37,734 nt of DNA, taken from Emcibacter sp. (lineage in GTDB: Bacteria; Pseudomonadota; Alphaproteobacteria; Sphingomonadales; Emcibacteraceae). The stretch's first letter is position 1; each line of letters starts with the position of its first letter. Under the pieces are notes generated by a model. The model worked only from the letters and a program-made list of their open reading frames with translations, had not been told where the DNA came from and did no database searches. Location of the stretch: positions 1 through 37,734 of the forward strand of contig JALSHF010000219.1 of NCBI GenBank assembly GCA_026982375.1, read 5' to 3'. This document shows positions 15,058 through 20,292 of the stretch, one piece after another. Position numbers and translations under genes: made by a program.

Positions 15058-15720
15058 ATGAACATTACAAAAATTATCAAGATAATTGCGCTTACTCTAT
15101 TATTTTTAGCGACAAAGGCACAATCCCTTCTGGCCAATGAATATACCATACTGGCTTTTGGCGACAGCCTGACGGCGGGATATGGCCTGATGGCCGAACA
15201 GGGGTTCACCTATCAGCTGGAATATGAACTTAATCAGCTGGGTCATAAGGTGACTGTCGTTAATGGCGGTGTTTCCGGGGATACAACTTCCGGTGGATTA
15301 TCACGGCTTGAATGGGTGTTGTCCAGTGTTAAGAACGGAAAACCGGATCTTGTTATTCTTGAGCTAGGGGCCAATGATGCGCTGCGCGGGATAACGCCTG
15401 ATATTACGCGCGCAAATATGGAAAAAATGCTGTCTATCTTAAAACAGGCAGAATTAAAAACCCTTGTGGCCGGAATGATGGCCCCGCCAAATATGGGAGA
15501 TAAATTTGGTGCAGAATTTAATCGTATTTTTCCCGAAGTTTCTGAAAAATTCAACACGCATCTCTATCCTTTTTTTCTTGAGGGCGTTGCGGGAAATGAA
15601 GCGTTGAACTTAAGTGATGCTGTTCACCCAAATTCAAAGGGCGTTAAGGTTATTGTAAAGAATATCATTCCCTACATCTTAAAAACCGACAGTTATTTTG
15701 GATTAAATCCAGAAAAATAA
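15058..15720 (+). CDS. tesA: Arylesterase / acyl-CoA thioesterase I, GDSL family
   Basis: This is a periplasmic SGNH hydrolase of the TesA type (thioesterase I, protease I, lysophospholipase L1). The four blocks are present: FGDSLTAGYG with nucleophile Ser37, GGVSGDTT with the oxyanion Gly, LGANDALRG with Asn106, and DAVHPN with Asp187 and His190. A signal peptide covers residues 1 to about 26 and ends near SLLA. ATG 15058 gives a compact signal peptide; ATG 15040 would add six residues, and neither has a good ribosome-binding site. It is divergent from ybbA-ybbP, the conserved arrangement, and probably works with that ABC system on lipid-like substrates. Confidence 0.92.
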   Translation: MNITKIIKIIALTLLFLATKAQSLLANEYTILAFGDSLTAGYGLMAEQGFTYQLEYELNQLGHKVTVVNGGVSGDTTSGGLSRLEWVLSSVKNGKPDLVILELGANDALRGITPDITRANMEKMLSILKQAELKTLVAGMMAPPNMGDKFGAEFNRIFPEVSEKFNTHLYPFFLEGVAGNEALNLSDAVHPNSKGVKVIVKNIIPYILKTDSYFGLNPEK

Positions 15721-15726
15721 TCCATT

Positions 15727-15812
15727 CATCGCAGCAAAAAGCTCCTTCGTCGCAAGCCACTGTTTTTCATCGCAAAAAGGATGCTATTAGTCGCTCATAA
15801 GTTTTCTATAGT
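15727..15812 (+). promoter_or_regulatory. Four helically phased TCGC repeats and -10 element
   Basis: TCGCA occurs at 15729, 15750 and 15770, and TCGCT at 15791. The spacings are 21, 20 and 21 bp, two helical turns each, with A/T-rich DNA between. The last copy is just upstream of TATAGT (15807-15812), a plausible -10 with no good -35, where an activator could bind. The downstream gene at 15870 encodes the small exported PepSY-like protein. The arrangement suggests cooperative binding of a response regulator or similar activator. This is inference; no regulator gene is adjacent. Confidence 0.45.
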
Positions 15813-15869
15813 CTGGTTGCGTGGCATAAGTCTCCTACACAAACTGAAAAGCTGAAGGAGAACGGACAG

Positions 15870-16193
15870 ATGCTCAAAGGAACAAAAATTATTGCGATGG
15901 CTTCACTCATGATAACAGGCGGATATACCGCCGTACAGGCCTATGAGCCCGGCAGTACGACTGTTAATCAGTCAGTTCAGGCCATTAATATAGAAAAAAA
16001 TATTTCCAAAGCAGACGCTAAAACAATAATGAAGGATTATCTTAAATCCAAAAAAGCCTATAAAAAATTGAGTGTCGGCGACATTGTTAAGCAACGAGAT
16101 CGCTGGAAAGTAAGAATAACGAATAATCAAAAAACTACAGTCGCCACGACCTATGTGAACAGCAAGACAGGTGAAATTACTTTCAAACGGTAA
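15870..16193 (+). CDS. Small exported PepSY-like protein
   Basis: The gene encodes a 107-residue precursor with a clear signal peptide (MLKGTKIIAMAS..., cleavage after AVQA at residue 24). The mature part of about 83 residues is basic and polar. It begins with a KADAK helix-like stretch and ends in a predicted beta hairpin (RWKVRITN, then TTYVNSKTGEITF). This resembles a single PepSY repeat, a periplasmic domain often seen beside two-component systems or as a stress-induced small protein. The ribosome-binding site GAAGGAG is strong. A good terminator follows, so it is a single-gene transcript with its own elaborate upstream region. The function is unknown. Confidence 0.7.
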   Translation: MLKGTKIIAMASLMITGGYTAVQAYEPGSTTVNQSVQAINIEKNISKADAKTIMKDYLKSKKAYKKLSVGDIVKQRDRWKVRITNNQKTTVATTYVNSKTGEITFKR

Positions 16194-16224
16194 TTACCCC
16201 TACTACCCCTCTTACCTGTCTTGT

Positions 16225-16262
16225 GAAGCAAGCCCCTTACCCCGGGGCTTGCTTCTTTTTTT
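16225..16262 (+). terminator. Rho-independent terminator of the PepSY-like gene
   Basis: A 12-bp perfect stem, GAAGCAAGCCCC (16225-16236) with GGGGCTTGCTTC (16244-16255), encloses a 7-base loop and is followed directly by seven T. This is a textbook intrinsic terminator and the strongest one in the window. Confidence 0.92.
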
Positions 16263-16331
16263 ATTCAGAAAAATATCGCGTCCAAGGCTTGTTTGCGGTT
16301 ATAGTAGCAGCCTGAATAAGCGGGATAAAAA

Positions 16332-17096
16332 ATGAAGTTGAATTACTATACTGTTGGCGCTGGCCCCAATTTAATCATTTTACACGGGCTATTTGGTTCT
16401 GCGAGCAATTTTCGTTCGCTCGCAAAGATTTACGGGGCATATTTCACAGTTTATTGCCTCGATCTTAGGAATCATGGTGCCTCCCCCCATGATGATGACG
16501 TGTCATTGGGCGCTATGGCCTCGGATATCATTGAATTTATGGATGAGCATAAGCTGGGCAATTCGGCCTTGATGGGACATTCCCTCGGCGGCAAGGTCGC
16601 TATGCAGGTGGCCTTGAATTATCCCGAAAGAATATCTTGCCTCATCGCAGGCGACATTGCGCCTGTTGAATATCCTCATCATCATGACGGCATTTTCGAG
16701 GGCATGAGGGCGGTGAGCCAACAAGCTGTCTCGTCACGAAAGGAGGCCGAACGGATTTTAGCGGACTTTGTGGAAATGCCAGAAGTAAGGCTGTTTCTGC
16801 TGACCAATCTGGTTCGGGATCAAGATAAATCCTTTATTTGGCGCATTAATGTCAACGGGCTGGAAAATGGTTATGAAGATATTTCAAACAAACCGAACGG
16901 GATGCCTTACCAGGGCCCCAGTTTATTCATACGGGGTGGTTTATCGGATTATGTGAAAGAAGAATATTTTCCGGCAATTTACAAGCTTTTCCCCAAAGCT
17001 GAAATTGTCACTCTGGCCGGTACGGGCCATTGGCTCCATGCCGAGAAACCGAAGGAATATGCGGCTATTACCTTGAAATTTTTAAAGAAAGTTTGA
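16332..17096 (+). CDS. Alpha/beta hydrolase, YbfF-like esterase
   Basis: This is a cytoplasmic alpha/beta-hydrolase of 254 aa. HGLFGSASNF (18-27) supplies the oxyanion region. The nucleophile is Ser84 in GHSLGG, followed by an Asp near 206 (GGLSDYV) and His233 in GTGHWLHAEKP. The LRNHGASP segment (45-52) is characteristic of the YbfF esterase group, which acts on short to medium acyl esters or acyl-CoA. No signal peptide is present. It lies 3 bp before the PanE-type reductase and is probably co-transcribed with it. Confidence 0.87.
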   Translation: MKLNYYTVGAGPNLIILHGLFGSASNFRSLAKIYGAYFTVYCLDLRNHGASPHDDDVSLGAMASDIIEFMDEHKLGNSALMGHSLGGKVAMQVALNYPERISCLIAGDIAPVEYPHHHDGIFEGMRAVSQQAVSSRKEAERILADFVEMPEVRLFLLTNLVRDQDKSFIWRINVNGLENGYEDISNKPNGMPYQGPSLFIRGGLSDYVKEEYFPAIYKLFPKAEIVTLAGTGHWLHAEKPKEYAAITLKFLKKV

Positions 17097-17099
17097 AAA

Positions 17100-18041
17100 A
17101 TGCGCATCGCAATCATGGGCAGCGGCGGTATGGGTGGCTATTTAGGCGCAAAATTAGCGGTATCTGGTCATGACGTTATCTTCATAGCCCGGGGCGCGCA
17201 TTTGGAAGCTCTCAAATTAAATGGCCTGAAACTCATTTCCCAAAATGGGGATATTCATATTGATAAGCCGTTGGCATTTGAGGATACCCGGGACGTGGGG
17301 CCCGTTGACTTAATCCTGTTTTGCGTCAAACTATATGATACGAAATCTGCGGCCCTTGCCTGCAAACCTATGATGGACCATGATACATTCATATTGACGC
17401 TGCAAAATGGTGTGGAAAGCGCCGATATTATATCAAGCATTATTGGCGCAGGAAAAGTGATTAGCGGAGCTATATATGTCTCGGCATCAATTCAGTCCCC
17501 CGGGATCATTAAACATTCCGGCGGCAATGATACCATCCAGTTTGCCGAGGCTGACAATTTACCAAGTATGAGAACCGATATTCTGGAAAATATATTTGAA
17601 CAGGCAGGGCTTATTGGCCTTCGCGCAGATAATATGAAAGAAATGCTCTGGTCTAAATTTGTTCTTCTCTGCGCCAATGCCGGATTGGGGTCTTTGACGG
17701 ATAGCGGCACGAAAACCATGTGTTCTGACCCGGATACCAAAGAAATACTGCTGGCGGCAATGTGGGAAGTATTTAATGTTGCCAAGGCCATGGACATCGC
17801 GCTGCCGGAAAGCATAATAGATGATATATTAAACCTCCTTATATCAGATGATCAACAAGAAGAAATGATTGCGTCTCAATGTCTTGACCTTAGAAAAGGT
17901 AACAGGCTCGAACTGGAATGGATACAAGGCACATTGTACCGGTTAGGTAAGATTCATAACGTGCCGACACCCATTAACAACACAGCTTATGTGGCTTTAA
18001 AAAGATTTGCCTCAGGCTTGAGTTCAGAAGGTTCAAGTTAA
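17100..18041 (+). CDS. panE: 2-dehydropantoate 2-reductase
   Basis: This NADPH-dependent ketopantoate reductase (PanE/ApbA family) makes pantoate for coenzyme A. The N-terminal Rossmann motif is GSGGMGGYLGA (7-17). LQNGVES (101-107) holds the conserved Asn, and Lys186 in MLWSKF matches the catalytic Lys of the family. The C-terminal RKGNRLELEW contains the usual substrate-binding polar residues. At 313 aa the length is normal. Many organisms have several paralogues acting on other 2-oxo acids, so the pantothenate role is likely but not certain. Its stop codon shares the tetranucleotide TTAA (18038-18041) with the convergent cysteine desulfurase. Confidence 0.85.
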   Translation: MRIAIMGSGGMGGYLGAKLAVSGHDVIFIARGAHLEALKLNGLKLISQNGDIHIDKPLAFEDTRDVGPVDLILFCVKLYDTKSAALACKPMMDHDTFILTLQNGVESADIISSIIGAGKVISGAIYVSASIQSPGIIKHSGGNDTIQFAEADNLPSMRTDILENIFEQAGLIGLRADNMKEMLWSKFVLLCANAGLGSLTDSGTKTMCSDPDTKEILLAAMWEVFNVAKAMDIALPESIIDDILNLLISDDQQEEMIASQCLDLRKGNRLELEWIQGTLYRLGKIHNVPTPINNTAYVALKRFASGLSSEGSS

Positions 18042-19186
18042 AGCTGGGTGCGGATTTTTTTAACAGCATCAATGATGTGATCTGCGGCATAATTAATTTC
18101 CTGATCCATGGTCATACGGCCAATACCTATTCTAATGCTGCCTTCGATTTGAGCCTTATCAAGGCCAATGGCGGTTAAAACATGGGAGGGTTCAGCGCGG
18201 CCCGTTGAACAGGCCGACCCTGCGGAAAAGGCAATATTGCGCAACCGCTTGATCAAAGCATCCCCCTTCACGCCATCAAAAATTAAATTCAGGTTACCCG
18301 GATAACGCTGTTTTTCAGATCCGTTCAGATGGACGCCGTCAAGGCTGCCTAAAATTTCTGATTTCATTCTTTTTGCCAGATTATGAATATGGTCATGATC
18401 TTTTGCCATATCCTGTTTGGCGATTTTGCATGCGGTGCCCAAGCCAGCGCATAAGGCCGGTGATAATGTGCCTGACCTAAGCCCTCTTTCCTGTCCGCCG
18501 CCATCAAACAAGGCCAAAGGTTGAATATTTTTTGGGCGTAAATACAACGCACCCACGCCCTTGGGGCCGTATATTTTATGACCAGAAATGCTCATGAGAT
18601 CAATATTCATGGCAGATACATCAAGAGGTATCTTGCCCGCCGCCTGCGCGGCATCCGTATGAAATATAACGTCACGGGCCATGCAGATGGCGCCTATTTC
18701 TGTTATATTTTGAATGACGCCAATTTCATTATTCACGGCCATAATGGAAACAAGAGAAGTTTTCGGTGTGATCGCCTGATCCAGTTGGGCAAGATCAATC
18801 AAACCATCTGCCCCCACCGGCAGATATGTGACCTTAAAACCATTTCTTGCCAGCGCAGCGCAGCTTTCCAGAACGCACATATGTTCCGTCACGGCTGTGA
18901 TAATATGATTTTTTGATGGATATGCGGCATAGGCCATGCCTTTTATGGCCAAATTATTGGATTCAGTTGCGCCCGAGGTGAAAATGATATCCTCAGGGGC
19001 GGCACCAATCAGATTTGCCACATTCTTGCGGGCAATTTCGACGCCCGCTGCGGCTTCCCAGCCAAAGCTATGGTTTGAATGCGGATTGCCGAATTTTGTG
19101 GTTAAATAGGGCATCATTTCCGCAAGCACCCTTGGGTCGAGCGGCGTTGTAGACTGATAATCCAGATATATGGGCAAATCCGTCAT
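18038..19186 (-). CDS. Cysteine desulfurase (second of tandem pair)
   Basis: This PLP enzyme takes sulfur from cysteine as an enzyme-bound persulfide for Fe-S clusters or thio-modifications. It has 382 aa. PLP contacts are His102 (TEHMCVLE), Asp178 (HTDAAQ) and the Schiff-base Lys204 (SGHKIYGPKG). The active Cys326 lies in SAGSACSTG. The last motif places it in the group I IscS/NifS-like class rather than SufS. It overlaps the upstream desulfurase by 4 bp and ends within 4 bp of panE. No iscU, sufE or suf genes are in view, so the acceptor partner is unknown. Confidence 0.93.
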   Translation of the reverse strand: MTDLPIYLDYQSTTPLDPRVLAEMMPYLTTKFGNPHSNHSFGWEAAAGVEIARKNVANLIGAAPEDIIFTSGATESNNLAIKGMAYAAYPSKNHIITAVTEHMCVLESCAALARNGFKVTYLPVGADGLIDLAQLDQAITPKTSLVSIMAVNNEIGVIQNITEIGAICMARDVIFHTDAAQAAGKIPLDVSAMNIDLMSISGHKIYGPKGVGALYLRPKNIQPLALFDGGGQERGLRSGTLSPALCAGLGTACKIAKQDMAKDHDHIHNLAKRMKSEILGSLDGVHLNGSEKQRYPGNLNLIFDGVKGDALIKRLRNIAFSAGSACSTGRAEPSHVLTAIGLDKAQIEGSIRIGIGRMTMDQEINYAADHIIDAVKKIRTQL

Positions 19187-20292
19187 GACATTCTTTTCCG
19201 GTCATATAATTTCTTCCACGCGCGGATGAAGGCATCGGCATCCTGCTGCGTCGTCTCCGGGCCAAGGCTTACGCGAATGGTTGACAAGGCCTGATCCTGC
19301 CCGCCGCCCATGGCCGTGACCACATGAGATGGCTTGACCTTACCCGAAGAGCAGGCCGAGCCCGAACTGACGCATAAGCCCTCCAGATCAAAGGCCATGA
19401 CCTGTGTCTCACTGGAAACGCCGGGCATCAGAATGGTGGATGTGTTGGGCAGCCTGTCAACCGCCCCGCCATAGAAACAGGCTTGCGGCGCATATTTACC
19501 AATTTCCTGTTCAATGCGGTTTCTTATTTTTTCACAAGTTTTCATGGCTTGAATATTCTGTGGAATAAAGCTGACCGCCTTGGAAAAGCCCGCTATACCC
19601 GCCAGATTTTCGGTGCCGGCTCTTCGGCCCCCTTCTTGGCCCCCGCCATAGGCCAATGGCACTAGTAGAATTTTTTCTTGGGCTATTAAGGTGCCGACCC
19701 CTTGCGGCCCGCCAAGCTTATGGGCAGAAAGTGACATCATATCCACCTCCAATGCCCGGAAATCAATCGGGATTTTACCCAAGGCCTGAATGGCGTCCGT
19801 ATGAAATAAGGCACCGGCTTCATGGCTTATCCGCGCGAGTGACCTTATATCTTGAATGACGCCGGTTTCATTATTGGCTAACATGATAGAAACTAGGGTG
19901 TTTTTGGTGGCCTGCGCCAAGGCATCCCGCAGCTTTTCAGGCTTCACAAGACCATGTTTGTCAACGGGCAGAATATCAACGCGGCCTTTAAAGTTTTGCT
20001 GGATTTGTCCAACTGAATCATGCTCGGCAGCAGAAATAATTATATGATCCAGATTTTTTACATTCAGGGCCAGATTATTGGCCTCTGTGCCGCCGCCTGT
20101 GAATATAATTTTCTGAGGACGGCAATTGACCATTTGCGCTATGGTTCGGCGGGATTTCTCCAAAACAGATTTGGCATGACGGCCAACGCTGTGGACAGAG
20201 GATGGATTGCCGCCCCTCTTCATCACACAGCTCATTTCATCTATGACTTCCGGCCTGATTGGGGCTGTGGCATTATGGTCAAGATAGATCAT
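19183..20292 (-). CDS. Cysteine desulfurase (first of tandem pair)
   Basis: This is a second group I cysteine desulfurase, 369 aa, clearly different in sequence from its downstream neighbour. His91 (AAEHDSV), the Asp in FHTDAIQ and Lys192 (SAHKLGGPQG) form the PLP site. The catalytic Cys314 lies in SSGSACSSGKVKPSHV. Its start codon directly abuts the cysE stop, with no gap, and its end overlaps the next desulfurase. Cysteine made through CysE could therefore be used at once by the pair. Tandem desulfurases are known in Alphaproteobacteria near suf genes; one may serve Fe-S assembly and the other tRNA or another carrier (inference). Confidence 0.93.
   Translation of the reverse strand: MIYLDHNATAPIRPEVIDEMSCVMKRGGNPSSVHSVGRHAKSVLEKSRRTIAQMVNCRPQKIIFTGGGTEANNLALNVKNLDHIIISAAEHDSVGQIQQNFKGRVDILPVDKHGLVKPEKLRDALAQATKNTLVSIMLANNETGVIQDIRSLARISHEAGALFHTDAIQALGKIPIDFRALEVDMMSLSAHKLGGPQGVGTLIAQEKILLVPLAYGGGQEGGRRAGTENLAGIAGFSKAVSFIPQNIQAMKTCEKIRNRIEQEIGKYAPQACFYGGAVDRLPNTSTILMPGVSSETQVMAFDLEGLCVSSGSACSSGKVKPSHVVTAMGGGQDQALSTIRVSLGPETTQQDADAFIRAWKKLYDRKRMS

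Follow-up and report, generated by a model that had tools for sequence, protein, structure and literature searches.

A helix-phased repeat array in Emcibacter: a probable LytTR operator in front of a PepSY-like gene and a conserved C-rich RNA

Four copies of TCGC stand at almost equal steps in front of a short gene in the genome of Emcibacter sp. (GenBank assembly GCA_026982375.1, contig JALSHF010000219.1), and we can ask: which protein binds them, and which product do they control? The stretch of DNA analyzed, here called the window, is 37,734 nucleotides long, and its relevant features are collected in Table 1. In the reading which we prefer, with a probability of about 0.66, positions 15725-15795 form a tandem LytTR operator, from which the sole LytTR regulator of this genome drives an RNA of about 440 nt that is PepSY-like mRNA and C-rich RNA in one. 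Most likely the regulator, once phosphorylated, occupies the repeats along one helix face; it would bring RNA polymerase to a promoter that has a -10 element and no -35, activation being the presumed sign of control. The transcript would encode a small exported PepSY-like protein and continue into a structured C-rich RNA that closes with a terminator, and the exposed C-rich stretch probably pairs with G-rich ribosome-binding sites of other mRNAs. The operator is phased and conserved, the genome has a single LytTR gene, and in sister family f5 the array is linked to the operon of the orthologous regulator. Below the same operator lies a conserved paired RNA, which persists where the open reading frame (ORF) is missing.

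Table 1. Positions of the operator, promoter, gene and RNA features in the window
Feature	Position	Strand	Sequence, basis or remark
Repeat 1	15725..15733	+	TTCATCGCA, 0 mismatches to TTYRTCGCA
Repeat 2	15746..15754	+	TTCGTCGCA, 21 bp after repeat 1
Repeat 3	15766..15774	+	TTCATCGCA, 20 bp after repeat 2
Repeat 4	15787..15795	+	Degenerate TTAGTCGCT, 21 bp after repeat 3
Putative -10 TATAGT	15807..15812	+	Sequence; TATAAT in G017
PepSY-like ORF, 107 aa	15870..16193	+	ORF list; signal peptide-like N terminus
Conserved structured C-rich RNA element (models R1/R2)	16163..16262	+	Fold, alignment, covariance model
Outer stem, 5' arm CAAGACAGGT	16163..16172	+	Fold, alignment; last ORF codons
Single-stranded C-rich stretch CCCCTACTACCCCTCTT	16197..16213	+	Predicted fold
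Outer stem, 3' arm ACCTGTCTTG	16214..16223	+	Fold, alignment
Intrinsic terminator stem-loop, then T run	16225..16255	+	Terminator scan

A previous reading of this DNA from its letters alone (hereafter the sequence-only reading) had described four TCGC copies spaced 21-20-21 bp, and direct inspection of the window agrees with it in positions and spacing, the copies starting at 15729, 15750, 15770, and 15791. Around each of them the 9-bp repeat reads TTYRTCGCA, and the spacers between the repeats are 12-11-12 bp. Repeat 4, the weakest copy, deviates from the consensus at 2/9 positions and covers the expected -35 region. LytTR-domain regulators are known to be marked by direct repeats, about 9 bp long and separated by spacers of 11-13 bp (PMC4847170, PMC4064291, PMC11347149), and the array has just this arrangement, with at least two imperfect copies in direct orientation. 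When the window was shuffled 200 times with its dinucleotides kept, four TCGC in a 20/21-bp chain never appeared, and the longest chain was three, reached in 2 shuffles. TCGC is the sole 4-mer of the real window with a 20/21-bp chain of four; no 4-mer at all had one in 30 shuffles. The genome search for spaced repeats proposed in the sequence-only reading gave 6 matches to the relaxed pattern TYRTCGCN{12,14}TYRTCGC in the whole 2.63-Mb genome, 2 of them being this array, against 1 for the reversed-pattern control.

How widely is this arrangement kept? Relatives of the 107-aa PepSY-like protein were found in 14/32 genomes of the family, at 19 places (L004 and L005, which duplicate the loci of G007 and G017, were exchanged for L022 and L023). 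For each of them the 230 bases before the start were searched for chains at 20-22 bp with a matrix of 13 positions, trained on 88 half-sites from arrays outside the PepSY locus, which avoids circularity, and each region was compared with 100 shuffles of itself. The sequence-only reading had made its claim depend on conservation of the repeats upstream of orthologues; matching repeats were found in 18 of the 19 regions, which scored higher than every one of their 100 shuffles, although G014, G018, and G015b passed on a single site. G015c was the only one of the 19 that did not beat its shuffles. The 21-20-21 rhythm itself is not confined to one species or genus: it stands in G000, in G003 from another genus, in G016, in G017, and in others.

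At the level of whole genomes, the paired pattern TYRTCGCAN{11,13}YTYRTCGCA had 55 matches in 25/32 genomes of the family, several of which are incomplete (22/32 are at least 90% complete), and its reversed control had 1. The contexts that were read are mostly intergenic and immediately 5' of a gene. The recurring targets are the PepSY/esterase locus, prmA, and FtsX/MacB-like permeases, with an RND efflux permease in the sister family. Repeat pairs precede prmA-like genes, recognized by eye as those of ribosomal protein L11 methyltransferase, in six family genomes (L054, L055, L069, L106, L114, and L121). In the large family f6 of the same order the listing gave 28 pattern matches against about 19 reversed controls, and most of these matches should not be taken as sites because they are near the control level. 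Four f6 arrays look real, those before SIMPL/DUF541-like genes. There, in four genomes (L084-L087), the repeat pair lies directly 5' of the gene, whose product presumably belongs to the SIMPL/DUF541-like family.

The promoter below the array was said in the sequence-only reading to have a TATAGT without a good -35, and this is borne out: a good -35 is absent there, since the sigma-70 scan reported no promoter with a -35 at this TATAGT. The transcription start is predicted near 15819. Over 62 array rows the distance to the -10 showed no clear peak. The same reading had called the repeats a helix-phased activator array. A phased regulator array is upheld by its conservation and by the candidate regulator described below; activation is the presumed sign. 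According to PMC11347149, LytTR regulators are mostly activators, which speaks against the LytTR protein being a repressor here, and so do the weakness of repeat 4, the promoter without a -35, and several relatives in which the repeats are recognizable only as an upstream pair. On the other side, repeat 4 overlaps the expected -35, and CoxC of Afipia represses from three comparable direct repeats, 18-21 bp apart, over its -35 (PMC11347149). Repression is an alternative that we consider unlikely.

If the array activates, what does it activate? The sequence-only reading proposed a dedicated, regulated transcript for a short PepSY-like periplasmic protein. The ORF has a signal peptide-like N terminus, and its match to PepSY (PF03413) is only sub-threshold, 18.1 bits against a gathering cut-off of 24, and hence we call the protein PepSY-like only. 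Where present, the ORF seems to be a real gene under purifying selection (dN about 0.04-0.06, dS about 0.14-0.20, dN/dS about 0.28-0.33 by NG86 for G000, G007, and G017), and the dN/dS of about 0.3 suggests that the protein matters as well. The strong terminator of its own which had been claimed for this gene is confirmed (Table 1). That reading did not see the target, namely a conserved structured RNA in the 3' portion of the transcript.

Its predicted layout is an outer stem of 10-13 bp, an inner hairpin, an unpaired CCCCUACUACCCCUCUU located on the 3' side between stem and hairpin, and the terminator. The last codons of the ORF (KTGEITFKR in the window) form the 5' arm of the outer stem. 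The fold of 16150-16262 has -44.2 kcal/mol, compared with -20.6 +/- 3.1 in shuffles (z -7.55). Across genera, GGTAATTACCCCTACTACCCCTCTTACCTGTCTTG and the terminator 3' of the ORF are almost identical, and within the RNA conservation is highest in the C-rich stretch, though it is unpaired. In an alignment not fitted to any model (12 sequences, 11 distinct) 97.7% of cells were paired and 6 pairs had changed on both sides, values reached by 0/500 shuffles; with the partner slid by 1-3 columns, pairing fell to 32-51%. A covariance model built on these sequences found the RNA in 21/32 family genomes, as 22 units, G017 being counted once with its RNA split over two contigs (L150, L171). The covariation in the model-fitted alignment (24 rows, of which the G016 rows are doubled, 21 distinct) leans towards structure because that alignment was fitted to the model. 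In nine genomes of another genus, g5, the sequence of stem and terminator differs and the architecture is the same, and CCCUACU is common to both RNA types; covariation inside g5 is weak, 48/500 shuffles reaching it. Genus g5 (L161-L169) also has a further stretch, C-rich, hairpin-like, and conserved (TTGCAAG ... CTCCCTATAGCTA ... CTTGCTCCC), located between repeats and RNA, about 20-90 bases 5' of the RNA element.

Among the 22 most complete genomes the RNA is absent from G002 and G023, which have neither regulator nor array, and also from G029 and G031. Rfam 15, which includes RNAIII, gave 0 matches in 15500-16400 and only sub-threshold ones in 15800-16300, the best with 29.9 of 50 bits. Outside the family (118 genomes searched minus the 22 of f1, thus 96, under stricter filters) there were four weak matches to the RNA model. 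The RNA was not recognized there with confidence; all four are without an array, and the one in G062 is a C-rich RNA of different sequence. This G062 element (L174, G062:C11:697204-697308) has two CCTCCTCCCCC stretches and a terminator but no repeats, at a model E of 8e-4. Sites complementary to the RNA were not found in the window or in L077 beyond the opposite strand of the element itself, and literature searches at the level of titles brought up no publication about the array or the RNA.

The association of RNA and operator does not depend on the gene. In 22/22 units the RNA is preceded on its own strand, within 520 bases, by a T[CT][AG][CT]CGCA repeat, whereas the controls gave 1/22 on the opposite strand and 4/22 downstream, G017 and G024 offering less downstream sequence. 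A second copy at 20-22 bp, two mismatches allowed, is also present in 22/22 units, at a chance of about 3% per unit. Yet the PepSY-like ORF stands between repeats and RNA in only 9/22. In the other 13 (G004, G006, G014, G015, and nine of genus g5) the longest closed ORF between the two spans 15-40 codons, with 50-140 bases separating the repeats from the RNA; in four of these units the former coding end is still recognizable as the 5' arm of the stem. In G015 the start is predicted at the base of the stem, and therefore the transcript would be RNA alone. The RNA is thus the more widely kept product, and the small protein may be a secondary one, because array and RNA remain without it in 13/22 units. 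Since the RNA lies under repeats in every unit, including these 13, the locus looks like a regulator-controlled mRNA/sRNA.

One may object that the array is a LytTR operator and the 3' structure nothing but the end at which the PepSY mRNA is processed and terminated, without a role in trans. The nine units in which the stem arm is the end of the ORF, and the purifying selection on that ORF, would fit such an mRNA end. We find this rather improbable in view of the 13 units where array and RNA outlast the ORF, of the unpaired C-rich stretch as the most conserved part, and of the G015 transcript, which judging by its sequence would contain no mRNA at all.

Returning to the first half of the question, which protein would bind the operator? 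The genome of the window has one LytTR (PF04397) protein, and such proteins occur in 27/32 genomes of the family. It has 271 aa with the domains Response_reg and LytTR (G000:C94, L077:6519-7334). Directly before it, with an overlap of 4 bases, lies a His_kinase gene (L077:5413-6522); the domains of the pair are PF06580 (3.2e-25), PF00072 (6.6e-26), and PF04397 (6.7e-23). This is the layout of LytS/AlgZ-LytTR two-component systems, in which a PF06580 sensor adjoins a Response_reg+LytTR regulator.

The AlgZR (FimS-AlgR) system of P. aeruginosa likewise combines a REC+LytTR regulator with a sensor of the His_kinase type. In the half-site table position -4 is a C in 63% of the 60 sites from the window's family (f1) and in 92% of the 39 from f5/f6, a base which the search pattern did not demand. 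The AlgR site of Pseudomonas is CCGTTCGTC, as given in the cited part of PMC4064291. Repeat plus C at -4 reads CNNTTYRTC, which therefore contains this site, every constrained position fitting the C-NN-TTYRTC core. AlgR sites are, however, usually not in tandem at 21 bp as here, and neither PepSY nor RNA targets are described in the same part of that source.

Among the 22 family genomes that are at least 90% complete, G002 and G023 alone lack LytTR, and the same two alone lack the pattern (Fisher 1 in 231 by hand arithmetic, resting on just two absences). In the order, 7/297 genomes are without LytTR and all 7 are without the pattern, which outside f1 is weak evidence. The strongest tie is one of physical position. 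In a set of 13 wider array regions, a LytTR gene was found in the 5 with the RND permease and in no others. These are the five genomes of sister family f5 (L124-L128), where 5/5 arrays stand before the RND permease that heads an operon RND-adaptor-kinase-regulator, with a regulator 58-60% identical over its full length to that of the window genome. Thus the repeat precedes the own operon of the orthologous regulator, and this operon, with the repeat pair at its head, looks like a self-regulated efflux system. An array beside the regulator was seen only in f5; among 30 LytTR loci scanned in the window's own family there was none.

Could a regulator of another family, for example a response regulator of OmpR/PhoB type, bind these repeats instead? 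LytTR proteins are not alone in using direct repeats phased with the helix, and in the window genome LytTR gene and array sit on different contigs. We consider this quite improbable, since the motif table shows one element per two turns and no half-way copy, the repeat has an AlgR-like core, and in 5/5 cases in f5 the array heads the operon of the orthologous LytTR regulator. Within the LytTR family the assignment is less simple. In genomes with several LytTR proteins the cognate one is ambiguous because the same motif is used there, an example being an array beside a membrane LytTR in G027, and other LytTR proteins probably use the motif too. The G027 pair (G027:C67, L076:2210-2237) lies directly behind the gene of a membrane-anchored LytTR protein and before a gene for a small exported protein.

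That the repeats arose by chance and have no function is practically inconceivable: TCGC by itself is frequent, with 90 copies on the + strand of the window, but the shuffles, the family-wide pattern counts, the PepSY upstream regions, and the RNA units are all contrary to it, and we regard chance as ruled out by the shuffle controls together with conservation across genera.

Comparison with known systems helps to place a LytTR operator of this kind. The best-scoring model for the regulator of the window genome is BtsR (NCBIfam NF008677), with 177 bits, under the cut-off of 246. In E. coli the targets of YpdB/BtsR are transporters, and their motif differs from the repeat found here. The YpdB-yhjX and BtsR sites resemble ours in being direct repeats with spacers of 11-13 bp, and the regulon is described as very small in the cited part of PMC4847170. 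RcoM-1 and CoxC bind three direct repeats at 18-21 bp, TTCNNGCA and TTNNNGCN, whose spelling is one base different in length from the repeat here; CoxC is alphaproteobacterial, and its array covers the -35. These are (PMC11347149) single-component CO sensors controlling cox genes, unlike the regulator here. HigX of Caulobacter crescentus is an alphaproteobacterial LytTR protein binding to cell-envelope and efflux promoters, but it is membrane-anchored, has no receiver domain, and recognizes an inverted repeat without a spacer (PMC13384398).

The nearest counterpart in design is AgrA-RNAIII of S. aureus. There a LytTR response regulator drives an RNA with an internal small ORF for a peptide, and exposed C-rich loops of this RNA pair with Shine-Dalgarno regions and mask them (PMC3861533, PMC2837412). 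We understand the likeness as one of design and not of kinship, because Rfam gives no match. Unlike RNAIII, the ORF here encodes an exported PepSY-like protein and is dispensable, and any action of the RNA is a prediction; nor is the kinase a peptide sensor of known type. For the wider proposal, that in this family an AlgR/LytTR system drives a hitherto undescribed C-rich regulatory RNA from a phased operator, with dual function in those genera where the transcript also encodes the exported protein, and that this is a convergent Gram-negative counterpart of AgrA-RNAIII, we see the odds as even.

The locus offers a new RNA family, and a regulator, its operator, and its product can now be predicted throughout a family of bacteria that are uncultured or little studied, and marine as judged from the isolate names of two metagenome-assembled alphaproteobacterial relatives. 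If the RNA acts in trans, Alphaproteobacteria would also have evolved the circuit of LytTR two-component system and C-rich RNA that Staphylococcus has. Where the ORF is lost and the RNA retained, nature would give a clear example of the 3' end of an mRNA that has survived its protein. Elsewhere in the window, two adjoining genes on the minus strand (18038-20292) were recognized by eye as cysteine-desulfurase-like.
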